NCBI RefSeq assembly: GCF_000003815.2
Contig: NC_049980.1
Span: forward strand, 15,929,576 to 15,993,575
Length of the DNA stretch: 64,000 nucleotides
Direction of reading: 5' to 3'
From: Branchiostoma floridae
Lineage: Eukaryota > Chordata > Leptocardii > Amphioxiformes > Branchiostomatidae
Shown one piece after another: positions 11,663-57,200 of this stretch. A program made the position numbers and the translations under genes. Position 1 is the first letter of the stretch; each line of letters begins with the position of its first letter. The notes beneath the pieces are model-generated. The model worked only from the letters and a program-made list of their open reading frames with translations. It was not told where the DNA came from and made no database searches.

Positions 11663-14600
11663 TTAGTAGTAACCTCTGCCATAACTCTGGCCAGTCGTGA
11701 ACGCATCAGGAAGTGTGTCTGTCAAAAGAAAGTTACGTTAGAGAATACAAGCAATTAAACTCTCCCATTCAGTCATTCAGTGGTAGGAAAGAAAAACGAC
11801 AACTTCACAATCAGGGAATATGGCATGAAATGTGTCACAATACATTGTAAGTTGTACTCGTAATAGACGTTTGGAAGTAACATATGTACTACGATTTCAG
11901 ACAGCTCAATAGTGAAAACGGAAAAGCCGAAAATGCAAAATCTACCAAGAAAACGTACTGTGATATACAATTATGAGAGTCTGAATGACAAATGTAGACC
12001 TGCAACGACGAGGCTAACTAGAAAAGAATTAGCAGGTTTTCTGAATACCTCGCTGATCTTGTGGGCAATTTTGACATCATCGCTATAAACGTAGTGAAAG
12101 GGACGTACCGTTACACGTGTAGGTGAGGTCAGACCAAATGATTTGTTCCTGTGAAAAGCAGAAGACACCCAGTCGACCGCCTCTCATCGTTGTGTCAATG
12201 ATCGTTCCCGAGTCAGCCACCAAATTCTGTCCCTCGTACAGTCGAACCCTGATGACAATCATCAACAAGAGGTCATCAAATGTGTCACGCAAGTGTGTTT
12301 ACAATTTGTCCATGAACATTTTCCACATGATCATACAACCTACCGGAATGATGTTAAAGTCCCGGACAACTTTGGCGTCTACATACCTGATGTACCCAAC
12401 GCTGGGCCTGTGTTCAAGTTGCCACCGGTAAGACGCCTTGTCCTTCCATCCAACATTCCTGGGATCCTTCCACAGAAGTTTCACCTGCAGATCCACAGAA
12501 TTCCATTGATGTATCATTTTGCATATTTACAACGTTAAGTCAGCAATGAATAAAAAATCAGGGCTTGCAATCTTGCAGAATACTTAACAACCCTGTCACA
12601 CATGACGGATCATGTCCACTCAACCTTCTCCAGACCATGGTCGGCAGTCAGTCGACAGCAAGGTCATTTGTGGTTGGGGATTGGTCGGCATTCTCGGCTA
12701 CGTCAATTGAATATAAATTTTGATGAATCAAAGTCAGGAAAGTCCTATTCTGCTTGGAACCGGCAATATGAGCTTTGCGATGAAAGGAGACCTGAATCTA
12801 GAAAGGATGGATTCCAGGTCACTCCCTGTTCAACGCCGACCTTAGTTGGGGATGGTCTCCTAAATGTGAGACAGGGGCTTAAGGCACTCACCTGAGACTC
12901 TGTGTCTCCTGTGTTCCACAGCGCGTTTCGCAACATCTCCCCGGGACCGGTGTTGGACTTCACGGCCTGTTATGAAAAGTGAGCAGAGTAAAGTGGAGTA
13001 TAAAATGTTCCATGGAGCTCCCTCCACTTTCCACTAAAGGCTGTGACCGCTGGGCAAGCAAACATCTGACAGGTCACTCAGTAAATTTCATAGATAAAGA
13101 AAGTTTTACTTTTGAATGCTTTGTTGTTTTTTAGATCTTACTTTGACATCGTACATCATATTCAGATTAGAAAATCGATAGTTCAACGATCGCTGTTTTC
13201 AAGAAAGAGGGCCTTAATAGGAACACATTGTGAAGCTGTATAACAATTTGCTTACATGAGATCTGGTGCTTCATGAAGTTGATATGCATCGAAGTTGAGC
13301 GTGCTCTGAATATTTTGAATGAAGTTTTTGGAAGACACCAGTATAACATATAAGGATCTATATAGCAGAGACTTGACAACGTTTGTGACATGAACCTTAA
13401 GCTGCAGCCCGGGTTCCGCCACGGCTCGGAAAGGCGTGGCCTGCCAGTAGGTCTGCTCCTTCTGTTTCCACATGACGACATAGAAACTGCCACTGTCTTG
13501 GTACGAAAAGATGAAGCCTGCGTAGTCGTCATCAGTTTCTGTGTTGACGTAGAAGGTTCCACTGAAATCCACGCCGTTAAACCCTGTGAAGCCTGAAACA
13601 CAGACAAAAAAATGTAAGGTGGATGCTCAACACAAAAGTTGCTCAAGCAACTGGATAAGTATTGAAGACGGCACTATCCGCTGTCTTCTGTCATCAGATG
13701 TCCAACGTAGTAAGGCAGCTGCATCATTTACAATTCCTTTAAACTCACTACAAGAAGTGTATAATTATCTATACAACGGGACCTAAATGATAACGTTATG
13801 GTATACCTTTAGGCATATGGTAATAGTTTGTGATATGGTGAAGCTACTCACCGACGGCGAGACCTGGGTCACTGTTCATTGTCTGCACGATTTCACGTCC
13901 CTGGTAGGCAAGACAATGGCAAATAACATACAGTTGTGAGCACCCAACAATGACAACAGCAGAAAGTAACAACATACGCAAGTACAGATTCTGATACATG
14001 TATGAAAACCAAAGCCAATGGCGTCATCGACCACCTTGTAGGTGTGGATAGATAAGGCGAATGAGACAGTTGATGTTCAAATATGAAGTTGGCGTCTCCA
14101 AGCAGCTGCTGTTGAATGCTTTGCAGTGCTGTACACATCGGGGAACAGCTGCGTTAATCGAGAAGTGTAGACCTCTGTTAACATACAGCAGGCAAGCCTG
14201 TGTCCTCAACATCTCAGTATCACTGCCGACCCTCTGTACCGTGAGTGCCGTCTGGCTGTCGTTCCACGTCACTGTGCTTAATGTAGCATCTTTTGTTCAG
14301 CAGATAACACAGCCAGTGGCTCCTCCTTTGGCATATCTCAAGTCATGACGAGAAATATTTGAGAGCGAATACCAGGAAATGACGTATTGACCCCCGAACT
14401 TAACATAGCAACTTTTTCCAGAGAGAAGATGATGAGAATGACAAAGCCCAGCTCACTCTTGATCGGCCTCCGTATTTCCTCCCAACGACCAACCAATGAC
14501 TGCTGTCACTGTTTGGTTGATGTTAGTGACAGCGCTGTTGTGAGCTTTCAGCCGTTAGATTAACTTATTGCACGTGTGATTGCATAGGTGTTTTTTGTGT

Positions 14601-17600
14601 TGACTTTAAAGGCAATGAGAGCGTCATATTGCATGGGGTTGTACAAAAAAAACGCTGTTACCTCTCTGGAGATGACAGTTGTCCGCTCCTCTCACAGCAT
14701 TTACATAGCCACCCTCTGCGTCGTTTTTCTTTGAAACTTACCGCCTAAATTTACACATGAGTCTAGCAGTACATTCGACCTTTTCAAACTCTGAAAATTT
14801 GGGTGTGAATTTTTTTAAATTTCACTGTTAGCCAGGAAAAGTCTACAACTAAAGGCCTCTGGTTGTATTTGATTTTAACTGTCTCCGTCATGATGGCACT
14901 TATTGCAACGTCGTGTGTCTTACGGCGTTAGCAGTCAACCCCATGATTGTCTCTAAACGAACTTGAATGTCTGATGATTCACAATCATGCGGTCCCCCAA
15001 CGTCATACAAACCTGTAACCATAGAGCAATCTATAACACCAACAGTGATCACATGTCTGATAGTTCTTTTTTGGGGGTGCAATTTACATATTGCCATAGA
15101 CGGCACATAAAAATTAGGGACGGTATTCAATGCAGCAGTTATAGTACTATAATACGAGCAAAAGCAAGCCATGTTACAGTAAGACGCAGACTAACCTCGT
15201 TCAGAACAACCCAGTTGGGGTCTATCTGGGCTTCTCCTTCGGGATCAAGGACAACTGTCTGGAAGGCGCGGAAGTCTGTCTTCTGAATGGCCGCGTTTTC
15301 TGGACAGACGTCAATCCAATTCACCACGTTATCGTTATCGAAATCGTCTTCGCAGGCATCGCCGACCAAGTTGCCTGTAAAGAGAGACTCACGTATTAAC
15401 TAGTGAACCAACTGAACACAACATGACGTTTTACCTCGTTAAGAATGACCCAGTTGGGGTCGATCTGAGCCTCTCCCTCCGGGTCCAGCACTACTGTCTG
15501 GAACTCTCGGAAATCAGTCCGCTGGATGTTGGCGTTCTCAGGACATACGTCTATCCAGTCCACCTGGTCATCGTCATCATAGTCATCCTCGCAGATGTCA
15601 CCTCTTCCATTCCCTAGAAAGCAGCCGGCACAAGTCGCCTACCAACTACACTGGTAAAAGTTATTTAAACTAACTGGTACCTTCCATGCGATGCCTCACT
15701 GTTTGATTACACGACCATTTCACCAGAGGCCATGGGTGAGGAGCGACCACTGAGTGACCGCTGAGCGACAAGAAATTTGACAAATCAAGCTCTTGAAGTC
15801 AGAAACACTTGCATATATGTAAACTCCCTAAAACCTACCGTTGGTGTCGAGCTGTGTCGGGTTCACCACCAGGCGGCAGTTGTCGTTGGTGTCAGTAACG
15901 CCGTCGTTGTCGTCGTCATCGTCACACTGGTCGCCTGGAAAAAAAACACAGCTTGTGTTAAACCAGAGCGGACAAGTACTCAACCAAACCACATTGTTGG
16001 TCAAATTGTTGACATGATACCAGACTTTTGACAAGTTTGCTCTGTGCAAGGCCAGAGGCACCGAGCTACGTACTCAACAGTCGACAAGTTAGTAACAATA
16101 ATATACTAACTTGAATTCAGTGCCACAATGTCCACAACTGCCTCAAAGCAAGTAAGAAAGTTCAGCACGTAGCAAGACCCAAAGGCCACTTCAATGCTAC
16201 ATGAGTAGGCGACAACAGCAGGTTGACACCGCGAGCGTATCAGTTGCTTATCGACATCGCACTGAATCCGTACTTAAGCGATCTAAAAGCTTAGGGGTCT
16301 TCTTATTACCATCGTCTTATAAGCTTACCTATGCCGTCGACATCTGTATCTAGTTGGTCACTGTTGGGAACTGTTGGACAGTTGTCTGAACTGTCCTGGT
16401 AGCCATCACCGTCCCTAGTAGGTGCAAACAAAATTCATAGTCCACATCCAAAGTAACGGCAATACATCCTAAACAAAGCACTGGTTCATTTTTAGATGCG
16501 CTTTCTGTGCATTCCACTACATGCAAGAGGGGCTTTAAAGAATCTTTAAATTACTTGCATTATTTTGAATAAGTCAATATCCAAGTCACAATAGTTCAAA
16601 ATTTAAAAAAAATATCAAAATTGAATAAATTCATATGTCGTTGGAAACATTTTAAAAGTGACTGTAGAGAAATCTGTTTGCTCATAATCATTTTCGAACA
16701 TATATGTGATCAGCCGTCCAGAGTGCTACCGTTTTAGGTTCATAGGCTCTTAAAATTAGCTGGTGCGCCTTATAAAAAAAATCATTGGAGCACAGTGCTC
16801 TTATCAATACTTGTTCGTGCCTAAACCATGGACTGCACAGATCAACAGTCAACTGTATACGATATTTTAACGATTTGATACTTTAAGAATGACCTCAGCT
16901 TTTAGATGCATTCTATCCAAGAGGTAATCTTCCATTCGTCTTGCAAGAAGGAAGGCATGTTAAGTAATTTTGTACTTTTTGCCTTTAAATTTACATCAAC
17001 ATCAAATTTACTAATTTCGTATGTTGCAAGTTGAATTAACGGTCATTTCAACTGTTAACCTTTTCAAAAATACATTTTTAACATTTGACAACAGTCATGT
17101 CTGACTATGGGTTCAGGTACACGGTTTAGGTCTGCGGAATAAAGTAGTAACTGTTGTGAATGTTGTGAATTGCTGGTACGCCCAATTTTGGGGGTTGGGA
17201 GCACAGTGCTTCTAGGTTGAAAATTCCACTTTTTTGAGTAGCAAGTTGCAGCTTACTGGTCTTCATTCGTATCACACGTGTCTCCTACCAAGTCGTCGTC
17301 ACTGTCATTCTGTGAAGAGACGAGAAAAGAATTTTATTGGACATAAAATGTGTAGGCTTAGGGTTGTTGATTAAGGTTCTGGGTTCCAATCCTTGACAGT
17401 GCCCAAAGTTGTACCATTTGGAAAGTCATTACACTCACTTACTCACTTAACTCAGGCGTACATCAGTACCTTCATGTAGCTTCGGTTAGAGACGTCCTCT
17501 GGAATTTGACGTAAAGCTGAATGACTCGTGTTTGAGAAAAGACACTTATCCAAAAGAGTTGGGGCCGATCCCGACTTCACTAGATCAAACATAAGACTCT

Positions 17601-20600
17601 GTTCTTCGGATCGACATCTTGAAAAGGTGATGATAGTCACCTGTTATGTCAATCAGTCCCAAAATGAGATACATGTCCATAAGATAAGCCAACAACTCGC
17701 CTGTGTTGGGTTACTGTTGTCCGGACAGCTATCACACTCGTCACCGACCCCGTCCCCATCCCGGTCCACCTGCCTCTGGTTCGGGATCTTTGGACAGTTG
17801 TCCAACAGGTTGGGAATACCTCAAGAGAAATGAGACATGAAAGCTCAAGCCAATGTCACACGAAGTCGATCATGACCTATTGTCCACACCTAACCACTGC
17901 CGAATGTTTTTAACGTTTTAATTTGAAACGTTCGAATGATACAGCTGACCAGTAGCAAACCTCTCATTGCCCAACATAGCCTCCCAGTCGACTCCCAACC
18001 ATGGTCTGCAAACTGTTGGGGAATGGGGATGGTTCGGAGGCGATGGTCGGTTATGTGTTACAGGGGGTTTAGCTCTGTCTCTGTATTCCATGAACGGCAT
18101 ACTTTCATAATTTCTAGGTCTTTACATCAAGTAGAAAAGTCGATCTCTGATTTGCTGTGAGCAAACGTCTTTTCTGTCCAAGAAACTACAATTCATCTAG
18201 CCGAAGTAACAGTCATCATTCTGGTGCATGAAATATCGACTTACTATCGCCATCAATGTCGTTATCGCAAGCGTCGCCCACGCCATTCCTGTCTGTGTCC
18301 AGCTGGCTGGGGTTAGGGACATTGGGACAGTTATCACAGGCGTCTCCATCTGAGTCCGTGTCCGAGTTCTGCTGCCCAGTATTCGGCTTCAACGGACAGT
18401 TGTCCTGTGAATTTGGAAAATACTGGGTATCAGTTGACTGTATGCGGCTAGAACGACTTGTCTCTGAGACTTCGAATTCTTATTTCAGAAGACGAACCTC
18501 ACATTTACATTTCTTTGACAACCCTTATAATTAACAACACATACCATTTGAGCAAGGTATATTTACCGAATATGTTCATCAATTAGTGCTCACCCATGAT
18601 AATTCGTGGATTGCAGAAGAATTTGTGAAGGCTCTCTATGGACCCGATCACATTCGGTTGTCTTACGTTCCCAAATCAAAAGTATTCTTAGGATAATCGT
18701 GTGTGTGCAGTGCAAATTTAGCCACCTTGTAACAAAAAATGCTGTCTTAGATTCTTATATTGCTGTCACAAACTACTTGAACGTCCCACGACTGCAAAAT
18801 AATAGGACGAATTTGGCCGTATCAATGCACACAACAAAGCCCAATTTCGAGGTACATCTGTCGTGCTGTTTATGGTAAGTCGGGCTGACCTCCATGTTGG
18901 GCACGCCGTCACCATCGGCATCATCGTCACACGCGTCTCCGATCCTGTCTCCATCAGCGTCCTCCTGGCCAGAGTTCGGCACCAGAACACAGTTATCCTG
19001 ACCAACAGAGAACAGACATTGGAGTTGTTACAGAGTTCGGCACCAGAACACAGTTATCCTGACCAACAGAGAACAGACATTAGAGTTGTTAAAGAGTTCG
19101 GCATCAGAACACAGTTATCCTGACCAACAGAGAACAGACATTAGAGTTGTTACAGAGTTCGGCATCAGAACACAGTTATCCTGACCAACAGAGAACAGAC
19201 ATTAGAGTTGTTACAGAGTTCGGCATCAGAACACAGTTATCCTGACCAACAGAGAACAGACATTAGAGTTCGGTACCAGAACTATTTTATTCTGACCAAC
19301 AGAGAACATCTACATTAGAGTTGTTACAGAGTTCGGCATCAGAACACAGTTCTCCTGGCCAACAGAGAGCAGACATTACAGTTGTTACAGAGTTCGGCAC
19401 CAGAACACAGTTATCCTGACCAACAGAGAACAAACATTGGAGTTGTTACAGAGTTCGGCATCAGAACACAGTTATCCTGACCAAACAGAGAACAGGCATT
19501 AGAATTGTTTTAGAGTTTCTTGTTCTATAAGGCGATTTGCATCCATTTCCAACGAAATTGCACGGTTTTGAAAGGAAAAATGATATGAAGGAGGTTTCCT
19601 TCCAGCATAAGGTAAAGTGGGTACATTTAGGGTGTATACATAGAACCTTTAGAACCTTACGTTAAAGTACTTACCGGTCGGCACTTAGGATCAGAACATG
19701 GGAGAGCTTCATCTGGATAGCCGTCAATATCAGTGTCCGGGCCGCACAGGAAGCCGTTTCCGCCCCAGCCCACTTTGCACTTTGATACAATAAATGGAGA
19801 AGGGTAAGTGTTGTTCTCATTTGCCAAATATACTAGTAGTCTGTATGGGCTCTTACAATTGATTCGAAGCGATATCTATGTAGGAACTAGCTAGGTAACC
19901 TTTTCGTTATTGTCACACGGCACATCAACGCGACTCGCACGGCTTGCAGGAGAGGGGATAAAATGTCAACATTTGGACCAAGAGCCATCGAAGCAACCTT
20001 GCAGACCCAGGCCGTGCGCTGAAGAGTCAATGGCGTATTTTCCAATATGTCACAGAGCATGTTAGAACATGTATGTAATATGTGTAGTCAAACCTATACA
20101 ACAGACCACCTCTACATAAAGACCACTGGCCGCTTGTTGGTGGTTTCTTAGGAATTTTCCCCACTGACACCAACATTACGAATCCTGTCCTTTATGAGTA
20201 TCTGTCCACAAAGACCAGATTTTTGCGCTCAGAAGTTCCCTGAGTGGTATTGATTGCATACAATCCTAGGTTATCAAAGTGAAGTTTCAATCAGTAGTTT
20301 TCTAACCTCACACTTGTATTGTCCCGGCTTGGTGACCTTGCAGTTGGCGTTCTCGTCGCACGGGTTCGTACCTCCGTCCGAGCACCGCCTGCCCGGCCGG
20401 CACCCGACCGTCTGGTTCCCCACGTACCCCGTCAAGCACGGCCCGCACCGGAACGAACCCTGGCGGCAAAACATAACATGTAGGAATGATCATGAAAATT
20501 GGACAGGTTTGTATCAGTAACACGTCCTTTGCGCTAGAGGTTTTGAACGATGAGCGATTAATCACATTTTTACATCATGCACCATATCTAAATCATAGAA

Positions 20601-23600
20601 CCAAGGGTCACACAAATCCAAGTGTCACCCCGGCAGCACAAATGACCAGTACAAAGAGAAATGGCCAGCAAAAGTGTATTATGAGTAACAACAAAAACAA
20701 GACAAACAAAAAACGAAAAGGGCCTAGAGAGCCTGCTATGGAGACTAGGTCATCCATGCGGCATAACATGAAAGTAATCAGCTTCTATATGCAGCTACAT
20801 GATAATACATGACAAATTCTATAATCATGGCAATCTACATTGAATTTCTTACGGCACTCTTAGAAATCTTTGCAGATATTTGTCGTGTAGTCTAGAGTGA
20901 CTTCACTAGAGCATATTCAGAGGCAATAACGTTTTGTCGACTAGTTTAAACCAAGTTGTATTTTACCCACCATAGTGTTCGTGCAGACAGAGTTAGGCAC
21001 ACAGCCACCGTTGTTGCCGTCGTTACATTCGTTGAGGTCCCGACACACCTGAAATAGATGGGTTCATTAGAGTTTCTAGAAACAACAGCATAGTTTAAGA
21101 TTTATATATTCACAAATGAACATTCAATAGAAATGCAATAACCGTTGCTCGGTAAAGCGGTTATCACACTGGGCTGCGCCTGATGGTGAAAAATTATTGC
21201 GGTATCTTTGCGATTTTTTCGCCAATTTTCCCCTGCGGTCACACCTACTTGCGACACACGGGTAAAATACGTGACAACGTAAGATCCCTACTAACAGCAA
21301 AAGAAACTGAACAAGAATATCTAGAAAGAAACTCTACAAGTAGAAAGAACGGTTTCAGAAAGATGCAAAAAGAATCTCTACATAGAGAAAGGATATTTTC
21401 ACAAAGATCTGTAAAGAACCTTGACGTGTAAAATGAAGATCTGGAAAGAACCACTACACGTACCTGTCTGTTCCTGAGTGCGAACTCCACACCCACCCCC
21501 TCTACCTTGTTCCCTGTGTACCCCCTAGGACAAGCCCTACAGCGGAACCCTGGGGACAGGTTCTGGCACGTTGTCAGCACGGAACAGGGTGTAGCAAGAC
21601 GACACTGGAACAGGTGGCATGGTTATCATTCTGTCGTAATATTTATGGCAAGTATAAATGACTGCAACTAATCTCATACATCAGTGCTTAGATGTTTACC
21701 TAACTAGCATAATTAGATGTTTAGAATAAGATCATTCTCCTACGCAGAGCTTTGCCCGTTGCAAGATACCTTGGGGAGGCTCTGCTCAACCTAAGATTGT
21801 GGGTGTAGCCTGTAACTAGCTGTCAACCAAACAATAACCAAAAACCAGACAATGACCTAAATGTTTCCTTCAGGTAAGGCAATTCTCTAACTGGGTGAAA
21901 GCTAGTTACCGGCGAACCCACAAAAGTAAAAAGAAAACTCCGTCTGGTTTGTATAGACCATATTCGAGGCTATGTGCATGAAGATGGATAAAAGACAGAC
22001 ATCAAAGAAACAGTCCTCACTTCGTCCACATCCGCACAGTGTGTACCGTTGCCTTGGTAACCCCCGGGACAGTCCCCACACTCGAACCCGGTGGGCGTGT
22101 CTGTACAGGAGACTCCCGCCCAGCACGGGTCGTCATTGCACGTCCGACGGGGCTGGGGAACCCCACCTGGGATATTCATAAATACAATACAATACAATAC
22201 AATACAGTACAGTACAAGACACGGCAACTATCATACATAAAAACGACTACCCATGAGCATTTGTATTCATGACTATGATGATAATATTAATAGTTCAAAA
22301 TAAACCTTCATGAAATATTCATGAGAAAATCAAAGCCGCTAACTTAAAAGGCAAGAAAACAACATAAGCCGTAAAAAGCTCTTATGAAATCCGTTGAGCC
22401 ATCTATCAATTTTTTGTTCGCCCGTCCATCGCTCGTCCGTCGCTCGGTGGTCCCAGCCTTTATTGAAATGGATGTGATAATAAAACAGATGATAAAAAAC
22501 AGATGATAATTAACCAGACCGTTACCTCCGCAGGCGTCACAGTTCTCCATAACAGTCCTCAACCCTGCCGTCTCACGGGCCTGCACATCAAGAGAAACAG
22601 TGCAATTAGATAGTTAGTCCTTTCCGCACCAGATGGTATATAGGGCGGCGCCCATCTGCTTGCCAATAGCCCTTGGACCTCACCTTTGTGCAATCACTTC
22701 AACAAGCGGCTAGTCCACTGGAAGACGCGTGCATACTAAACTACCATGATCTTTCCCAAATGCAGAGAACGTTATATGTACCATCTTCTCACTTCACCAT
22801 TTCACCCGTAGAGTAGTGCAGTACTTTTACGTTTGTGTCTGGTATCAACCCTAGCCTAGCCATAGATAATGGGGCGAGGAGGTTGTTTTCCAGGATGCAT
22901 GGGGTAGAGTATGACGTCAATGAAACTGCAGTTTGCTGAATGACAACGGGAGGCGCTCGTGACTAGTCTACTAGATAATCCTGTCATGCCGTCTAGCTTT
23001 GAACAGGGTGGGTGGGTGTCAAGAAACGTGTTTCCTCGTCCAGTCTTTTAAGTAGAGCTAGAAGGATGAGTTGAAGGGGCAACCCAGTTGTCTTGAGATT
23101 TGGAGAAAAAAAAGATAAGACGTACCTGTGTTCTGACGTCTCTCTGGAGTTGTCTGACAGCCTGTGTCAGCTCTCTCATGGTGGTCACAAACAAATTCAT
23201 CTCACTAGCTCCTGAAAACAAATATTTCTTACGTTGAATTAGCTCTGTTATCCCCATAACATTAGGCAAAAATCAGACTGTTTCGACACTATTAGCATGT
23301 GTTGTTGTTGTTGTTGTCGATGTTCGTATAACATCCCAATAACAATTGCATTGGCACGAAACGAATCGAAAACTAGTATACATTAAAATATCTGCTCTAT
23401 ATACACCATAGTATATATATAATATACACCATAGTAACTTTGCACATCGAACACAATATAGATCTATGCCTTCACTAAAAACAAAGTACTCACCAAACGA
23501 GCCAGGAACTGGAAGAGAATAAATAGAGAATAGATATTAAAGAAAATTTAAGTGCAAATCATGACTACGATTTGTCGCAAGCGTGTTTACAAAAGCATTC

Positions 23601-26600
23601 ACGCAACAAGTAATGTGTACTATTAACCAGAGTCTATAAACCACATGCCTTTTACTAGTATAATGGAACAGAATGTCCCTAGCTATCATTGCATACAACT
23701 TTCAAGCGCCCCCTACCGACATTGCCAATCACATCTCTCTGTGCCGTAGAGCCCCTTCCCTCGTGGTGGTCCCCCTGCATCAGGCAGTCCTGGAACTGGA
23801 GCACGGACAGCAGGTCTGTGTTGAACATCAGCCGCAGGTTCTGCAAGCTACCCTGTCAGGAGCAGATACATCGCAAAGTTCTGTCAAACACGTAAAAGTC
23901 GCAGATAACCATTGATAACCATCTCACACAGTTGGCTTCATAACATGTACTACACTGAAATTGAGTGAATGCCAATGTCCTTTGTACAAATTGTAACTGA
24001 TAACCAGTAGACGTTTTAGTGACCGTCTGTCATCTTCCTTAGAACTAAATGCTTCTACTTCGCACTACAGCTCGTTGCTGCAGTTTGAAGAATGTGGTCC
24101 CAACTATACAAATGACTTTGTTAACGTTATACAGGGATTCGCAAACTTGTTGAAAGTATTCACAGATGTACATTGCCTGTCACAGTTGTACCAGGAGAAA
24201 TACTGAGTTCTAAATTCAAAAAAGATAACAGGCTTTTCATTTGACGTCATCTGCGTCATGTTTACAGCATACGTCTGTAAACCACGTAAACCACGCGAAG
24301 ATGCTACTGCTTAATTAAATTACCTGCCAACATGGTCGTCGGAGGATTCAAATTATGAATAGTATGACGTCAATGAAAAGCCTCAATATCGTGTACATTT
24401 CTGCACATTTCACCGCTGACTTGAGAAGTGTAAGGAAATACGCTGCACAATCAGCAGGGCAAGCTGTACCACGAAAACAAAATCATGTTTCTGTGAAGTA
24501 CACGGAATCTCTATTCGACTAATTGTTGCCTAAGGGTAGAGAGTCCAGAGACCATCGTGTTTGAGTCAGTAGGTTTCAATGTAATGACGTGTTCTGGTCC
24601 TTGTGTCCTCGGGACCACCGGGTAAGAAACGACATCCAATATGCCCGAGCTAACAAAACAACAGGTGGCAATGATTTGGGGAAGTGTGCTTTATGAAAAC
24701 ATGACACGTTTGAGCATTGGCCTTGGCATTGCTCGTTTCATCCCATGACTTTTGTCACACTTGTTTTCAGTTTGGGCATGAAGTCGTGGGAATGCGACGC
24801 AAGCAAAGCGAAGATACATGTCAAGTGAAATGGCTATTATGTAACAACAGCGTGGCAGCTGTGTATTATGGATAATTGCTCTTGTCACTTCTGTGAAGCG
24901 GGACAGGTGCATGGTTGATAGATTAAACGTGGCAACACTGTCTGTCAGTTTCGAATGTTTCATCATAAATCATTTCTTGTCCTCATTGTTAAAGAACACT
25001 TCACCGGAGTTAACCTGTGGCATCCTTAAAAAAAAGGACAAATTGAACAGATAAGCACAGACATGTCTTCTCACCAACCTTAAACTTGAGCTGCCCTTTC
25101 CCAGGTCCCCTCTGCGCCACTCTCAGCTCAGCCACCGTCTCCAAGTAGTCAGCGCCCAGGGACTCCAGCACAGGGGCGCTCGTCCTCACCTGTACAGGGG
25201 TAACACCATTACTCATACAGAGATAGGCACAACTAGACTGGGTACCATCCTATTTCTACATAGGGGCTACACACTCGCTACCATAATTTTTATAAAGTAG
25301 CGAGTGTGAGGAGACCAGGTAGAAAAAGGATGGTACCCAGGCTAAGGCACAACAGGTGTCAGTGGAACATGACAATACGCATGACTCCACCGTTTACATG
25401 GTCTATAGATGGTCTACCCACAGCGATATTAAATTCACCCAGGTCTAAGCAATATCAAATTTACGGAGTACTTTCCTACACGAAGGTGCAATAATGGGCT
25501 GGCTAGCTACCCGTATTAAATGTTAGTGGGTTTTGGTACACCAATCATTTTAAATGCAGGTGTGGAAATTGATTCAATCTACCCTTCTGTCAAATTTCAG
25601 GAATGACGAAGATAAATCGAAAAAGAAGATTTTACAGAAGGAGGAGAAGAAACATCGGGAAAGATATATTTGTATTGTTGAAATATAAAAACTTGAATCC
25701 ATTTGAAGATTTGACAGGAGAAGGAGAAGAAAAGGAAGAAGCTTTAGAAAACGACAAAAAGCAATGTACATATAAAAAGGAAAATTTCCCGTACAATGTA
25801 AATACTGTACGTTACATGATATAGTGTCTTGTCTTGTCTGTCACAAACTGTGGAAGACAGCTCTTCGGTGAGCCAAACTTGATTGACATCACCTCCACAT
25901 GTCTTACCTTGTCGTCCAACATACAGTCCACGTACAGCTCCACAGTGTTGGAGTCGTGCAGGACGTCAGTGATGCGGACCAGGATGGAGTGCCACTTGTT
26001 ATCAGCAATGGGAGTCTTCCCCAGGTGGAGGGACGTCCGCTCCTCCCCACTCAGGAAGTTTACGGTCACTTAGGATAAGAAATGGAACATCTGTTAATAC
26101 TTTCATCAGCGAAGCTGGTAAATGAATGCAAAATGCTTTCCTGATCTTTTGGCTTGGGTACACAAACTTATCTTTCTCTTCGACATCTTCTTCTCCTTCT
26201 CGTGTCATCAGTTCAACCGACTGACTCATTTGGGACGAACGTAAACTCACGAGGATGGTACTCTAGGCTACTCCCACTCCCATCAGACAAAATCAGGCTA
26301 TTTGAAGATAATACCCTCTCAACTAAAACAGGAGTTTTACAGTTTACAGATTGATGACAAACAGGACAAACTATGTTTAGATGTATTTGTGAGAGCGAGT
26401 GTTAACTCAAGGGGAATAGATGGTACCTGGGCAGTTGGATGCCAGACCCACCTCCATGGAAGACCCATGGCCACCTCCATGGAAGTTCGGTCGTTGAAGT
26501 TGGCTCAAATCTCTAAATGTTCTCTTGTGTCAAAAGTTTTTCGGGGTCATGTTCCTATAGTGTAGACCCTAAAATAGTCTGGCAGGCTACTTCCACATTA

Positions 26601-43500: not shown

Positions 43501-46076
43501 TTTTTTTACCCATCTTGTTTTTTTCCCGCCCTATCGCACTATTTTTGCAATCTGCAGAGGATGTCATCCATAAAATTTACTTGCTGTGGCCTTATACATG
43601 TAACATCCATTGGCATAACACCGGTCGGTTTACTGCAATTTCTCAAGCAATGCTAATTTGGCAAATGATCAACGCATCATTTTCTCCAGTTACATGTTGC
43701 TGTTACAGCTTACCTTTGCCACTTCTTCTGTGTAAATTATTTTGTCTCTCTGGTCCTGCTAAAAACATAATATCGTAATTGGAACACACCGCGGAATTGC
43801 ACGGAGAACGGGCGCGTGGTTGGAAGGGGGTGCACTATACCGGTCGAACGAAACACGGCACAATTAACTGCCGCTATGTACCTTTATTCATCCTCTGTTG
43901 TTCCTTTCTTTCCTGTTAGTAGTTGCACAAAACAAAAATCTGCATGAGCATACAAAAAGTCATGAGAAAATGGGCGTATACTGACAAGAATTTTCATTTA
44001 ATTTTGGTCCGTCACAACCGCTATGACGTAAAACTTTACTGCTGGCCGTAGCATTAAAAATGGCGGGAAAATGGCGGCGTACGTTCAATTTGACCCATTC
44101 AGCCGTAGATCCGGGCTATTATGCAACGGTTCCTCACACTTTTACATGAGTTGTAGGTCACCAAAAGAAATTCAAGATTACTGTTGAATCATGCTCGTCT
44201 TGTGCCGTGAGAATATGTGATTATTATCTACAAATCTGGCGATGAACGTGACAGTGTGTTTGTCCCACGACGAGCTCGCCTGCCCCGAAAATGACCTGAA
44301 AACTTTTGGCCTTGTTGTCTTCGAATGCATTGTTATCGATGCTTTGTAAATTATGTATTGGACACCTAGATGTCTGAAGTGTGCATACCTCAGAAATAAC
44401 TATTGTTGCATGTGTAGATCTCTTTAAGTTCCACTATTTTTAATCGACCGGTATAAGGCTTATGACCGGTATTATGCCAATGCATGTTACACATGCAGTT
44501 TACTAGTCTTACTAATTAGTATGGTAGCTCCTACCTTTCTGTCTGGAAGGTTCCTGGCCACCCCCACTATCTGCTGGAACAGTGCCCCGTCCCCCATGTA
44601 GCGCTCCCCTGCCGCGCCCTTCTCCATGTAGTACCCCACAGCCTCCTCCAGCTGCTGCAGACTGTCCAGGTGCAGGTGGTCAGTCCTGGTCTGACTAGGG
44701 GTCATCCCCAGACTCTTCAGCAGCTCTGTGGCAGACACGATCAGGTCCACTCCAGCATTCACTCTGGAACAGGTATGTAGCATCATTAGACAACTGACCC
44801 AACTCAAAATACATTACATGCTATTTTCATCTCCATGAAAATGGAGATATAGGTTTGGGTGTGTCCGTTCGGAGTCTGCATACTACTACTAGTATCTGTT
44901 TGTGTTTCTTGATTTTTGTAGTCAGCACAGGGCTCGAAATTCATTTTTGGGATTAGGTGCACTGGTGCACCCAGCTTAAGAAATTGGGTGCACCAAAAAT
45001 GTTTTGGGTGCACCACTTAAATTTAAGTAGAATGTCAGAAAATCCTAATAATAAAACTTAGTTACAAGCTATCAAATTCTGAAACAAGTAACATGACAGA
45101 CATTTTTATTATCTTTCTAACACTTAGATGTCAAGAATATGATGTATACTAGTATACTTGATATCTTTCCATACATAAACCTAAGAAAATATTTGGGTGC
45201 ATCCTGTGCACCCACTGAAAAAAATTGGGTGCACAGTTCCAATTTTGGGTGCACCTGGGTGCACATGCACCCAGTATTTCGAGCCCTGCAGCATAACTCA
45301 AGAACTTCTTAATGGATTACAATATTTGATGTGTGTGGGTATGTGTTGGGAAGACGAAGGTCAAGGTTGGTTTTGGGTCCCCTAGTATGTGATGTCGGTA
45401 CTGCAGCAGAACTTTTAGTATCTTTTGACCTGGACATACTTTGTCTTGATTTTTTTGGTGGCAGGTAGCTTGGGATTAAATCTGATTTTATGAATAAAGA
45501 TTAAAAAAAAACCCCACAACTTTGAATCTAGGTCACTAGATCAAGGATGATAAGTAACCTGTATTGTTATGTCTAAAGTTACTTTCTGGCATTTTTCTCT
45601 CAACATCACACAAATCAAAATGATTGACAACAGTCTCATTGACTCCCAAAGTTGTCTCTACACCTTATTTTACCACTGTGAGCAGCTGGATTTCTGGTTA
45701 ATAACGTGGTCCCATTCGTTGTGACAAAGTGCACAATATTGACACGCCCACAAGAAGAAGACCAGAGGATTTATGATATGACCAAGGAGGTATGACATGG
45801 TGGAGTACATAACTAACGTCTCTACCTCTTCTCTGCTATATACCAAAATAAATGCATTCCATTTCCATCAAAGTGCATCTCTTCAAACATTACAAGTCAA
45901 AATAGGTGTCCCAAAAATTATGCTCACCCAACTGCAACTCGGTGAAAGCGGACCACCGGTAGTTGGATCTGAGCCTGCCATGATTGCAGGGTCCTCTCCA
46001 CGGGTCCATGGGGCGAGTAGTACATGTAGGCTGCAATAAATACGCAGAAGGCAATAACAAATCGTCCCGAAACCAT
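40518..46076 (-). CDS. ADPGK: ADP-dependent glucokinase
   Basis: It phosphorylates glucose using ADP as donor. Exons (minus): 46076-45928, 44763-44535, 42622-42563, 41891-41475, 41084-40518. The phases close (1422 bp, 473 residues; human is 497). The N-terminus has a hydrophobic anchor-like stretch (FVIAFCVFIAAYMYY) consistent with the ER location of the animal enzyme. Family landmarks in order: RVAVGVNAGVDLI, FFIGGNAALMGERM, PDLVVLSGLHLLE, VHLELASM, GLNEQEL, RIHFHSLTFH, and VCKNPIRTVGLGDAISATG, where GLGD holds the catalytic Asp. Introns 3 and 2 hold one MITE each (43059 and 44928), and the intron at 41892-42562 holds a dispersed repeat. The start faces metaxin across 321 bp. Confidence 0.96.
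42037..42117. repeat. Dispersed GACCACCT repeat, copy 2
   Basis: GACCACCAAAAAGTGGTTAC and the stretch up to GAGGTGGTCACTTGTACAGG match, as reverse complement, the copies near 56695 and 59090. It lies in an ADPGK intron. Confidence 0.55.
43059..43591. mobile_element. Harbinger-like MITE, copy 1 (ADPGK intron)
   Basis: 533 bp with terminal inverted repeats GGCCACAGCAAGTAAATTTT at both ends and a TTA target duplication at 43056-43058 and 43592-43594. A second copy in opposite orientation lies at 46824-47362 with TAA duplications. A TWA duplication with GG-starting termini is typical of the PIF/Harbinger superfamily. No transposase is encoded. Confidence 0.8.
44928..45288. mobile_element. hAT-like MITE with 5-bp duplication, copy 1 (ADPGK intron)
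   Basis: 361 bp with termini CAGGGCTCGAAAT and its complement, flanked by CAGCA at 44923-44927 and 45289-45293. Subterminal regions repeat GGTGCAC many times in both orientations. It matches the element at 49615 in reverse orientation. CAGGG termini suggest hAT; the 5-bp duplication, seen in both copies, is unlike the usual 8 bp. Confidence 0.78.
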
Positions 46077-46397
46077 AGTTAAAGCTTCTACTATCAGTAT
46101 CACGGCTCAAGCGTAGGGCAAAAGTCTCAGGCGAATGGATTCAACTTTCTTCAAGGGGTCGACCATGGAACAACCTTCATTCTAGATATACAAGCGCACC
46201 ATACAAAATAGTCCAACCAAATTTGCAGTGAAAATATTTCTTATGATTAATTAGACAAAATATTTCTAGTATCAAAAATATCTTAAAGACTGTGATACTT
46301 CTTTGATGTAAATCTAAATCGGTTAGATGGGACCAAGGAGATGGGACAAAAATGAGCGCATTGATTTGACCACGTAAGCATACCGCCGTGACCCAAG
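46077..46397. promoter_or_regulatory. Shared ADPGK / metaxin bidirectional promoter
   Basis: Only 321 bp separate the divergent start codons. The metaxin ATG lies inside AAGATGGCGGC (46395-46405), a strong YY1-type motif often found at housekeeping starts. I see no TATA box for either gene. Shared use is inferred from the spacing. Confidence 0.6.
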
Positions 46398-49300
46398 ATG
46401 GCGGCGCCCATGGAGCTGTGGTGCTGGAAGGGGGATTGGGGCCTGCCGTCGATTGATGTAGACTGTTTGACCGTCATTGTAAGTGTGAAAACAATCTTAA
46501 GCATTGACAAGACTATACCACATATGCTTGAAAGATTTTTGTGTGTTTCATACCTTTATATGGTTCATAAATCATATAAATGCATAATTTGATGGGTGGG
46601 CCGGATGGCCGATGGGTGGGTACTCGTCTGACATATCGTCTGACATCCGATACAAATATCAACCCCAGCTTCTTAGGAGTCGGAGTATGAGGACCAGACT
46701 TGTGTCGTTCTTTCGTGCTCTAACATTTAGCATTGCCTCATTGCTGGCATACCCTAAACTTTTACCATATACTTTTACTTTAAAGTATAATTCATGACTG
46801 GACCAAACTGTCAAGCCCAGTAAGGCCACAGCAAGTAAATTTTATGGATAACATCCTCCGCAGACTGCAAAAATAGTGCGATAGGGCGAAAAAAAACAAG
46901 ATGGGTGAAAAAAAACAAGATGGCTACATTTTCAAAAATAGGCACCATAAAGTTGTGATGAATGTTGTATACACAAGAATTCAAGGGGCAAAACATGGTA
47001 TCAGAGCCAATAAGGCATTCATTCCTGTATTCAAGACATGTAATAATGTGGTAAAAGTGCCACTGGTGTGGTAGACTGGCATCACCAACAAAGTTGGTAA
47101 CCACACTCATGGCTTCCATATTGGTGTCACTTTTACAACTATCCAATAAGTTTCATTTCTACAACTACAGTCCTGGGTACCTCGCAAGTGTAACTTCTAC
47201 AGTACAATTATTAGGCTACAGCACAACATATTTGCCCATTGTGGTACTTCATTGTCATGTTGACCATCGCTGTAGAAGAAAAAAATCTTTTTTTTCTTTC
47301 TGAAATCAGGCGAAAATTAATGCGCGCGCTGATGTCATCCAGAAAATTTACTTGCTGTGGCCTAAATTATGATATTGCATTCCCCAGAAATCCTAAACCA
47401 TAGTGCTTATTTACACATCTGGCGCGATAAAAGACATCTATCACATGTTGTTCCCTCCTTTTCAATCCATAGGCTTATGCAAAGTTTGCAGGTGCCCCAC
47501 TGAAGCTGAAGAAAATCAACAACCCATGGAAGTCTCCATCAGGTAGTATTTTAATACACATGTCCCTCTCAACCCTTTGTAACAGTTATGTTCTGCCTGC
47601 TTGTTAAAGTTTGTACCCTTGATGCTATTTCAGGCATGAAAATTTTGTGTTTTTACACATCACTGTGCTTTCTTGATACAGGCTCCCTACCAGTGTTCAA
47701 GAATGGTGAGGACTTGGTCTTTACATCTCCTGGAAGGATACTTGACTACCTTAGGCAAGAGGTATATGCTATCTTCATGTATGATATATTTTTATATGTT
47801 TTAATAACCATGGACAGGTTAGCAAACAAAAAGATTGAGCCAGTGATTACTACGGAGGATGGCATCCAGGCTAAGAGATGTGGATATATGTAAAGATATA
47901 TGATATATGAAAGATATATGTAAGATAACATACGTATTATAACACTACTAGTATCAAGTCTACCTGTTCATGGTTATCAACCCACAAGAATGAGCCAATG
48001 GTTACTATTAATGATTGCACCCAGGTAAAATACATACCTAGACTTTCACAAGAGAATCCACAAGTCAGAAACATTATCTGCTTTTCAGTATATGTGTACC
48101 TAGTGGTATGGGGTAAAATGAGTAAGGCTACTATGCAATGTTTCTCAGTGATGTTAGTCTATAGTCAGTGGATATTGCAGTTGTGCAGTGGTACATGTGT
48201 ATAGTGTGACTATGGTAATGTGGAGCCCCATGCACATGTTTTTGTAACCCTTAAAATTATGTTACAGAAATTTAATGCTGACTATGAACTCACAGCAAAG
48301 CAGAGCTCTGATGTGGTGGCGTTCACATCACTTTTGGAGGAAAAATTTATACCAGCAATGGTAAGGTTTTTGTAATTTAGATTGTTTGAATTACATTTGT
48401 TTTGTTGCTAAACAACTTCATTCCATGATCGAGCATTCCTAGATATATCAAGAATGGAGAGGACTTGGTCTTTTTATCTTCTAGATGGACATTTGACATC
48501 ATGATTTGTCATCATATCTTTTGGTCATCATTTTTTTCAGCTTCACTCCTTCTGGATGGACGCTAGAAATTACGTAGATTTCTCGCGCCCATGGTATGCA
48601 CGGGCACTGCCATTTCCGCTGAACTTCTTTGTCCCTGGCCGGATGCAACAAGCAGCAGAGGGGAGGCTACAGTACACACGTGGTGGGGACCACCTCATAG
48701 ATGGGGAGATGGAGTCTCAGGTATATCAAACATACAGATCCAGCTTGTTAGAATACTTATTTGCATTTTGTTTGTTTTAGCCTTTGTTTATTCATGTAAA
48801 AATCAAATCGACCTGCTGGCTGCTTTTCATTGAGGTTATGAGTGAAGAGGTAAGGGTCAGATGAAAAATAAAAAGGACATAGCTTACATGATTTAAGTGC
48901 TTATAAACCTATCAACACATAGTCTTGATAAACCCATAAACAAATGTCTTTATATACATGGTACTACAAATGTATTAGTGTTCTACCATGTCATATACAT
49001 GTATCTCAATGGTTAACTATGCTTTTCTCTGGTACGAACTTGAATGACTGTTGCCCACTTCTTATTCTCAGATCTACAGAGATGCTAAAGAGTGTTTAAA
49101 CCTTTTATCTGGACGATTGGGGGAACAGGATTTCTTCTTCGGCCAAAGGTACACGTTGTTTATATTCCTTTTACACATTCATAAGACAATCCCTTTCCCA
49201 TCTGCGTGTTTTATATAATTCATCGATGGTATATCTGGCATAAGGTGTACGCTGTCATGGTGTTAGTATAAGCAGTATGCTTGAGCATTTCACCAAAATG

Positions 49301-54294: not shown

Positions 54295-57200
54295 ATGTCT
54301 CAGTACAACCTTCGTTCCCGTGGACCTTTGAAGGTGGAACTTGGACATGGACCAGGAGCCCTGACGGCTGCGGGCGAACTAAAGCCCCCGTTGGGGAGGG
54401 GTGCTTCTACAGGACCGGTGGTGGAAACAGCATCAAACGAAAGGGAAAGTTCTAGCACGTTACTGTCATTAGGTAAGTTGTAAGAAATGAGTTGAATTAG
54501 ATATTGAGTCCTCTTAATTCCCCCTTCTCAATTTTATTTCAACAGCCTATTTCCTTTATATTTGCCATTGATATTTCTGTACTGTAAAATTCATTGCAAC
54601 ATACGCCGTTACACATGTAACGTTACATGACTCTGTCTTGAAAATTATGGCGAATACTAATAGTTAACAGAGTTTATTTTTTTCAACTGTAAAATCAAAA
54701 CACAGTGAAAGCCCTCCAACCATCGCAGATATTAATGATTTACAGTAGGTTACAAATGTGAAATGTGCTGGATGTTGGATGCATCGCACCTGTTACGAAC
54801 TTCAATCTGACCAACTCGGACCAACATCCAGGTTGAGTCATAATCCAATTCATAACCCTAATCCTAACCCAACACTGAGGTTGAGTCCTAAACTTACACC
54901 TATCCCCCAAAAAATGTTTTTCTGATTTGACCATAGGCTGTAGGGTAGTACTACTAGTAGAGTGTTTGTCTGTGGACGAATGCTCTGGATGGATCAAAAA
55001 GATAGCGGGCGAAAAGATCGGTGACAGCTGATCCCAAAAGCTGGTGTCAGAACCCCGTGAGTTGACTTGTCCAAGTTGGTAATGATCCAAATCGCTCTGA
55101 TCCTAAATTGTGATGACATGAAGTTTTCTGCTGCAGGAGACGGACAGTTGTTCGTGGTGCTGCTGACTGTGCGGTTGCTGAATGCAGCAGTGGTACAGAC
55201 AGCACATGTGCCTGATGAGTACTGGCAGTCTATGGAGGTGGCACACCATATGGTCTTTGGATATCCTTCATAATAATTTTTAGAGAAATTGATTGTTAAC
55301 CCCCCTCTTTATTCCCAACACTTACACAAGTTACAGAGTTTCCAATTTTCTTATATGTATAAACACAGCTCAAAAAGCTCAGAAACTTGAATTTGATCAA
55401 TCATATCTCTGTGAATACTTTATGATTTTATCAGTTGCATTTATTATACAGTAATTGGAAAGCCTATTCATTGTCCTTTAAAATGATACAATGTTTATTA
55501 AGACATATGATTGTTCATGAAAGTTGTATATTCTCCTTTAGAATGGTACCTTGTATGTAGCTCATTTGTTATGGTCATGATTTTGTGAAACAAGTGCCAT
55601 GACTGACGTTACCCAGAAAACATCAGCCATTCTGTTGGCAGGGAAGTTTTGGCACTTTCGCTCTGTGCTGCACTCTAATACTTTGTAATAGACAACTCTA
55701 GTGTTTGAATAGGATCATGACAAATTTGTATAAATTCTCCATTCCTGTACTATGGTAGTAGTAGTACCAGTACTTGTAAAGTTGTATGTTTTCCTTAACC
55801 AGTGAAACCTATGGTTACCTAACATGGGAGTGGCAGGCAGGGCTGCGAGGGTTCACTTACCCACTGGTGTTTGCTGCCCTTTACAAGGGTCTGGCTGTCT
55901 TCAGGCTGGACAGTGTCACCTTATTGGTAAGTTAATGTGATGATGGTATGTTGTCACATCTACTGGTATGAATTGCAATCTGTCAAAATTGGCAACTTTA
56001 CACCTGTGGAGGTCATGATCTGAGCCAATGTCAACAGAGATCCAAATTGCGGTTTCAGTCAGTTTGCATGCAATTGCTGAATGTACATGTACTGATACAA
56101 TCAGTTAATCCACTAGTGCAGTTGGTGCAATTCAACATGAAATATTATTACCCCTAATTTACAGGTTCTTCTCCCAAGACTACTCCAGGGATTCTTTACA
56201 GCACTATGTGACCTTTACCTATTTAAGGTCACCAGGAAGTTACATGGCGAAGGTGTAGCACAGTGGACTGTATCCTTTTGCATGTGCCAATTCAAAATCA
56301 AATAGAAGTAAAGTATGTTCACAATAGAGGGGAAAACAGTAAGTAATCAATTTGCATGAATTGTGGTTGGCAAGTACATGTACTAGGATATATAATTCTT
56401 GTTTACAAGGTACAATGTATGAAAGCCCATGCCTTACAATAGAAAATGTGTTGTACGGTTTGTACCAGTGTGTGATGATTCCATAACAAATTTGCCAGCT
56501 ATTGTGCCAGATTCTGTCTTGGTTTATGTTTTATTGTGGACCCAGAACTCTGACCAACTCCATGGAAACAGTCCTCACTACAGCTGCTCTGTACTACTAT
56601 CCCTGGCCACAGGAAGCTTCAACAACAGGGTCAAGGTTTGTTTTTGATAACTGAGTCTGGAGTGTTGTTTTTCATTGTTGATGTCAAATGCAGCCACATT
56701 TCCTGTACAAGTGACCACCTCTACATAGGGATCACCTAGGGATTGCCAATGTGGTCCCCTAGACAATATATCCCGTCAACACAATCCTGTCTGCAGTACT
56801 GGTAACCACCTGTCCACGTTGACCAGATTTTGTTGGTTCCCTGAGTAGTCTTCTTAGGCAGTTTTGACCGCATGGGTGCATGTATATTTGAAATTATTAT
56901 ATTTACATGTAACAGTTATTGTCCTGAAGGTAGCAATTTCAGAATTTACTTTGTTAGTTACCCATATAGATTAACAATCCGAGTGAGTTACTCAGTCTTT
57001 CCTGTTCCCACAGTAAACAGGTGGTGATGTATCTGAGTCTCGCTGCTCTGTCCTGTGTGGTGAGACCCACAGCAGCCATCATGTGGATTCCATTGTGCAT
57101 GCTACATTTAGTCAACAGTGGGAGCAAGCTGCATACAGTCACTCTGCACTTTATACCAGTTGGGTATGTGTAAATTGCTTTTTTAATACCCGGATCTTGG

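Follow-up and report, generated by a model that had tools for sequence, protein, structure and literature searches.

A tandem exon pair of an amphioxus thrombospondin gene, probably spliced mutually exclusively, carries RGD in one copy and VGD in the other

Exons 4a and 4b of OGDH and exons IIIb and IIIc of FGFR are known systems of mutually exclusive splicing, in which adjacent homologous exons have equal length and phase and in which the reading frame is lost if both copies or neither copy is included. For human mutually exclusive exons, the pertinent passage of a published account treats steric interference as indicated by a donor-to-branch-point distance of <50 bp, a class to which it assigns 57 clusters (9%) (PMC5740500), and a passage on OGDH exons 4a and 4b places the branch points 25-41 nt from the donor (PMC7969005). 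The amphioxus Branchiostoma lanceolatum is described, in an excerpt, as using mutually exclusive Fgfr exons (PMC5703972). With regard to the thrombospondins (TSPs), our searches of parts of the open-licence literature showed no report of a mutually exclusive exon pair.

In vertebrate subgroup A TSPs (TSP-1 and TSP-2), the last type 3 repeat carries an RGD motif, which in TSP-1 coordinates calcium and is able to bind integrins, according to a passage that also links VGD to beta-1 integrin binding (PMC6526912); part of a second study reports that the TSP-1 RGD is more exposed once calcium is removed or disulfides are reduced (PMC8044760). The first of these passages describes RGD at this site as conserved in chordate subgroup A TSPs and as occurring in a shrimp TSP and in a mega-TSP, and it does not report RGD at this place for subgroup B (PMC6526912). 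COMP, the subgroup B member with which we compared sequences (TSP-3 and TSP-4 were compared through the literature), has VGD at this place and carries its own RGD in an earlier type 3 repeat.

Here we describe a TSP gene of Branchiostoma floridae in which the exon for this segment occurs twice. The best explanation overall is probably that a single exon of one subgroup-B thrombospondin gene was duplicated in tandem and that its copies are spliced mutually exclusively. As in OGDH and FGFR, the two exons are adjacent, homologous and of equal length and phase, and a transcript that includes both, or lacks both, loses the frame; the intervening intron further resembles that of OGDH in having a branch point, here a candidate one, close to its donor. 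The amphioxus pair differs from both systems in that the gene encodes an extracellular matrix protein, that the swapped segment comes with or without an integrin motif, and that its exclusive use is here a prediction from sequence. It differs from subgroup A, with which it has an RGD at the identical place in common, in that the gene groups with subgroup B and has the RGD in only one of two exons.

Gene architecture and the logic of the exon pair

The window, that is, the whole 64,000-nucleotide stretch of DNA analysed, holds a gene on its minus strand whose joined model matches TSP_C (1.6e-100) and TSP_3 (2.9e-59) in Pfam; its type 3 repeats and TSP C-terminal domain place it in the thrombospondin family. 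The C-terminal domain is encoded by exons 23-27 (13592-13396, 12966-12892, 12484-12387, 12248-12109 and 11718-11663), which end in the stop codon TAA, and five earlier type 3 repeat exons lie at 18997-18890, 18404-18245, 17819-17701, 17309-17257 and 16414-16329. Further upstream on the same strand are open frames that contain EGF-like exons (frames within 20280..22227), of which four were recognised by reading and two gave weak Pfam EGF-type matches under the cut-off; open frames with coiled-coil exons (22350..23272; coil by reading, COMP domain at E 0.00098, under the cut-off); and a probable part of a laminin-G-like N-terminal domain (25818..26069; Laminin_G_2 at E 0.00031, its 21.6 bits falling short of the cut-off of 22.9). 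The exon at 17819-17701 has an apparent GC donor (CAG|gcgagt, 17695-17701), which would give a GC-AG intron. A 61-bp tandem array of 9.1 copies (18970-19517) runs into the type 3 repeat exon at 18997-18890; most of its units contain a copy of that exon's 3' splice site together with about 27 nt from the start of the exon (DNCVL(M/V)PNS, in frame), with gtaaca following in six of the eight units that precede the real exon (counted by eye), and these units may act as serial decoy acceptors or as in-frame microexons of 9 residues.

The duplicated exon encodes the last type 3 repeat and the start of the C-terminal region. One copy, 21a (15435..15613, minus strand), was defined by its splice borders, phases, reading frame and alignment with the COMP, TSP-2 and TSP-1 sequences in the PDB; the other, 21b (15196..15374, minus strand), was defined by the same borders, phases and frame and by the 48 of its 60 residues that it has in common with 21a. 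Each is 179 nt long with AG/GT borders, entered in phase 1 and left in phase 0, and at the same place 21a reads NGRGDICED and 21b reads NLVGDACED. Their upstream neighbour, exon 20 (15839..15934), encodes the preceding type 3 repeat and ends in phase 1, and their downstream neighbour, exon 22 (13852..13900), starts in phase 0, both also on the minus strand; the exon numbers follow an earlier sequence-only reading. In the spliced model, the frame is kept across the junctions from 15839 to either 15613 or 15374 and from either 15435 or 15196 to 13900. On one side, a repeat family (D2) stops at the exon edge, and a search of the window at E 1 found no third copy of the exon. The coordinates, 179-bp lengths, identical phases and splice sites that the sequence-only reading had given for both exons were re-derived as it had them, and recomputing its 48/60 identity and its two motif versions returned the same residues.

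Reading frame alone separates the possible products. The 471-residue C-terminal spliced model stays open with 21a or with 21b, whereas joining both exons brings a first stop codon at position 285 of that model and omitting both brings one at position 210; if the 60-nt intron between them (15375..15434, minus strand) is retained, a stop follows 13 codons downstream of 21a. The C-terminal domain can thus be encoded only by transcripts that include a single copy. A motif search of the 60-nt intron found yTnAy at nt 31, 39 and 57. The match at nt 57 lies 3 nt from the intron end and is unusable as a branch point; the other two, situated 29 and 21 nt before the end, are candidates by motif only, and their distances from the donor (31 and 39 nt) fall below the <50-bp criterion and inside the 25-41 nt range of OGDH.

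To place this intron among its relatives, 138 introns from 12 TSP loci were surveyed with 30 nt as the preset lower limit of intron length, a thirteenth locus (L021, a poor fragment) being excluded; 124 of the 138 lie at junctions common to at least six loci, and the 14 others were dropped. Among the 124, only one is shorter than 60 nt (38 nt, L014), the next measures 82 nt and the median is 304.5 nt; the dropped introns include one of 35 nt (L015) and one of 65 nt (L014). The 35- and 38-nt introns, which as modelled weigh against a steric limit at 60 nt, fall in or beside the stretch around model residues 328-349, which aligns badly in divergent paralogues, and are probably model errors. Within those 124 junctions, and with a scoring matrix that includes the window gene's own other sites, the acceptors of 21a and 21b rank at the 18th and 81st percentiles and the donors at the 65th and 33rd; the splice sites of both exons are thus ordinary in score and inside the range of the set.

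Mutually exclusive use of 21a and 21b is very probable. Under the steric limit taken from vertebrate work, a spacer of 60 nt would not leave the spliceosome enough room to splice 21a on to 21b, so that exon 20 would be joined to either 21a or 21b and thence to exon 22, and double, skipped or intron-retaining products would meet early stops and be lost. The gene would then be predicted to yield two kinds of secreted multimer, distinguished by their last type 3 repeat: a 21a form with RGD, three more acidic residues and the usual glycine at the preceding site, and a 21b form with VGD and with leucine where 21a has that glycine. Such a pair would most likely serve to adjust both cell (integrin) binding and calcium-dependent conformation according to tissue or stage.

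Divergence and constraint of the two copies

The 60 codons of 21a and 21b comprise 21 identical pairs and 39 differing ones, of which 27 are silent and 12 are replacements. At the nucleotide level, 50 of 180 positions differ, 32 of them third positions. The NG86 method gave a dN of 0.141 and a dS that was not computable, which we read as silent sites that look saturated, and maximum likelihood estimated a dN of 0.145 and a dS of 4.7. When 50 changes were placed randomly in a neutral simulation of 10,000 runs, a mean of 31.4 amino-acid changes resulted, with a minimum of 23 against the 12 observed, and 1,807 of the 10,000 outcomes were free of stops. Both copies are old and constrained as protein, since silent sites look saturated, dN is 0.14 and the replacements fall below the simulated minimum. 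This bears out the proposal, made from the letters of the DNA, that both copies have been under protein-level selection, and a codon count likewise returned the split proposed there for the last 18 codons (9 silent, 1 replacement, 8 identical). Eleven of the 12 replacements cluster in the first 37 codons (Fisher p 0.02, with the cut chosen post hoc).

Outside the exons, the resemblance fades. When the 50 intron bases beside each border were compared without gaps, 20 of 50 matched, against shuffle means of 13.7 and 14.2, and 63 and 82 of 2,000 shuffles reached this value; splice signals in common to 21a and 21b may produce this slight similarity. When 861 bases of the region were used as a DNA query against the whole assembly, with scoring limited to the best candidates, the matches were the region itself and two short ones (70 and 77%) on other contigs.

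Taken together, divergence, simulation, flanks and assembly search leave very little likelihood that one copy is unused or that the pair is a recent or an allelic duplication. The view that one exon is in use while the other is retained as an unused copy could appeal to the weakish acceptor of 21a (18th percentile), but such high silent divergence with few replacements and zero stops is not expected unless both are translated; we regard this view as very improbable, and a pseudo-exon was rejected on the neutral simulation, in which every run gave at least 23 replacements. Amphioxus genomes have high heterozygosity, which could let an assembly artefact or an allelic (haplotype) duplicate pass for a second exon. 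A duplicate of this kind is nevertheless highly improbable and was rejected: the nucleotide differences are concentrated at third positions, the flanks are almost unrelated, and the assembly search, within its best-scored candidates, found only the region itself and the two short, weak matches. The misassembled haplotype duplicate that the sequence-only reading had named as a check is thereby ruled out by silent-site divergence, with no second copy of the region found in the assembly.

Subgroup identity and ancestry of the RGD site

By its sequence, its architecture and a nearby metaxin-type gene, the window gene is assigned to subgroup B (COMP-like). COMP is the closest PDB sequence to both exons (E 1.4e-35 for 21a and 1.1e-36 for 21b), followed by TSP-2 and TSP-1, and over the 60 residues, with one position unscored, COMP is identical to 21b at 45 and to 21a at 42. 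In a tree of 16 rows, whose supports are moderate as it rests on 60 residues only, 21a and 21b pair with each other (83/83) and then with COMP (85/84), while a paralogue on contig C1 (approximately 23.16-23.17 Mb) groups with TSP-1 and TSP-2 (83/81). This C1 gene has TSP_1 in three frames (Pfam) and VWC under the cut-off; in the window gene, VWC and three type 1 repeats, the subgroup A architecture, were not seen, and a regular expression that catches two of the three type 1 repeats in the subgroup-A gene found none on the minus strand of the window. Subgroup A identity was rejected on the tree, this search and the TSP_1 repeats of the C1 gene. The coil end and the first EGF-like frame lie approximately 0.4 kb apart, and the coil is followed, by reading, by CDAC; paired cysteines after the coiled coil are given, in part of one study, as a mark of subgroup B (PMC1464143). 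Subgroup B is further characterised by an additional EGF domain, in regard to which the window gene shows the four EGF-like frames described above, and by assembly as pentamers. A coiled-coil family search of the genome gave no match anywhere, controls included, and is therefore uninformative. The gene thus resembles vertebrate subgroup B in that no type 1 repeats were found, cysteines follow the coil and a metaxin-type gene lies nearby.

With regard to the neighbourhood, exons with Tom37/GST_C_6 domain matches lie on the plus strand at 48.2-49.2 kb and are presumably those of a metaxin-type gene; an NCBIfam scan of the two metaxin-type frames and two others gave no matches. An exon of an ADP-dependent glucokinase gene (44.5-44.8 kb, minus strand) lies between the thrombospondin and metaxin-type genes. 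The metaxin-type gene is therefore near the thrombospondin gene without being adjacent to it, and the neighbourhood is similar, though not identical, to the vertebrate one. The glucokinase and metaxin-type exons (44490-49215), upstream of the thrombospondin gene, echo the vertebrate TSP-3/TSP-4-metaxin neighbourhood. Exons of an Alg9-like mannosyltransferase gene were also observed at 55061-55932 on the plus strand.

In 13 stretches of 10 kb searched by tblastn, the exon was found once in 11, twice in the window gene (L009) and not at all in L021. Its 5' junction is common to all 12 modelled loci and its 3' junction to 11 of the 12; in the C1 subgroup-A gene (L010 4935-4708), exons 21 and 22 are fused (228 = 179 + 49 nt). 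At the motif site, the C1 gene has RGD in its one exon copy, without an alternative, and ten more divergent loci have VGD (7) or IGD (3). These ten (L011-L020, on C1, C4, C10, C19 and C180), with type 3 repeats and TSP C-terminal exons, make up a sizeable expansion beside one subgroup A and one subgroup B gene.

It is unexpected to see RGD at this place in subgroup B, and there in just one exon of an alternative pair, as the motif is described as conserved at this site for chordate subgroup A (PMC6526912). At the 12 sites at which 21a and 21b differ, COMP matches 21b at five and 21a at two; the C1 subgroup-A gene agrees with 21a alone at five (3, 4, 19, 32 and 57) and with 21b alone at two; TSP-1 agrees with 21a at three and 21b at four, and TSP-2 at five and four, respectively. 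Since these allegiances are split, the arginine of 21a may have arisen within subgroup B, or it may be older than the A/B split and have been kept by 21a. Transfer of the RGD segment from a subgroup-A gene would also account for the five sites that the C1 gene has in common with 21a alone, but is not supported: in the tree, drawn from 60 residues only, 21a pairs first with 21b and then with COMP, and the arginine codons differ (AGA versus CGT).

Integrin binding and calcium as roles of the switch

The RGD of 21a aligns with those of TSP-1 and TSP-2 (PDB chains) at the identical place, so the position in the last type 3 repeat that the sequence-only reading had named for TSP-1 holds. In the modelled type 3 and C-terminal parts, RGD occurs once in the 21a isoform and is absent from the 21b isoform; VGD occurs three further times in the type 3 repeats of both. 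In addition to R/V, 11 residues differ, including three D/N swaps and a G/L change just before the R/V site; the first 25 residues hold 10 aspartates and glutamates in 21a and 7 in 21b, and aspartates 10, 11, 13, 15 and 22 of the exon are retained in both copies. In 21a, NGRGD (15597-15611) also contains an NGR motif that overlaps the RGD; NGR is an isoDGR precursor elsewhere.

By analogy with TSP-1, the 21a form plausibly has a calcium- and redox-gated integrin site. The sequence-only reading went further and proposed that splicing of one gene gives an integrin-binding and a non-binding thrombospondin. Its two constrained, frame-exclusive exons stand; 'non-binding' is too strong a label for the 21b form, since VGD has been linked to beta-1 integrins and occurs three times elsewhere in both isoforms, and the 11 other changes and the conditional exposure of RGD also tell against so simple a contrast. 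That RGD-dependent integrin binding is the main purpose of the exon pair is a reading we hold tentatively, at somewhat less than even chances. The G/L change, the three D/N swaps and the difference in acidic residues make a serious rival of the proposal that the choice of exon adjusts how the last type 3 repeat folds or binds calcium, with effects on stability, secretion or matrix assembly, and that RGD/VGD is incidental. This proposal, which we consider possible at perhaps a third of the weight of belief, draws on all 12 residue changes, on the calcium ion that the TSP-1 RGD at this place is described as coordinating (PMC6526912) and on the precedent of OGDH, in which, according to the passage cited above, mutually exclusive splicing of 4a/4b switches calcium sensitivity (PMC7969005). 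It does not readily explain why 21a reproduces the subgroup A RGD exactly, in a subgroup for which the published passage reports no such motif (PMC6526912), and the five aspartates kept in both exons also speak against it.

A broader evolutionary reading, in which, before the vertebrate TSP genes multiplied, alternative splicing at the RGD site let a single chordate subgroup-B gene supply multimers that bind integrins and multimers that do not, is doubtful; if true, it would mean that a cell-type-controlled adhesive on/off state existed in one matrix protein and that vertebrates divide it among separate genes. In a bolder form, RGD may predate the split between subgroups A and B, with 21a as the surviving copy in subgroup B. 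If transcripts confirm the exclusive use of 21a and 21b, the gene would amount to a natural experiment, since a single matrix gene would produce a pair of proteins distinguished at the TSP-1 RGD site and otherwise identical; the role of a conditionally exposed RGD could then be tested without comparing different genes, and amphioxus would offer a splice-based alternative to the vertebrate division of the RGD choice among genes.
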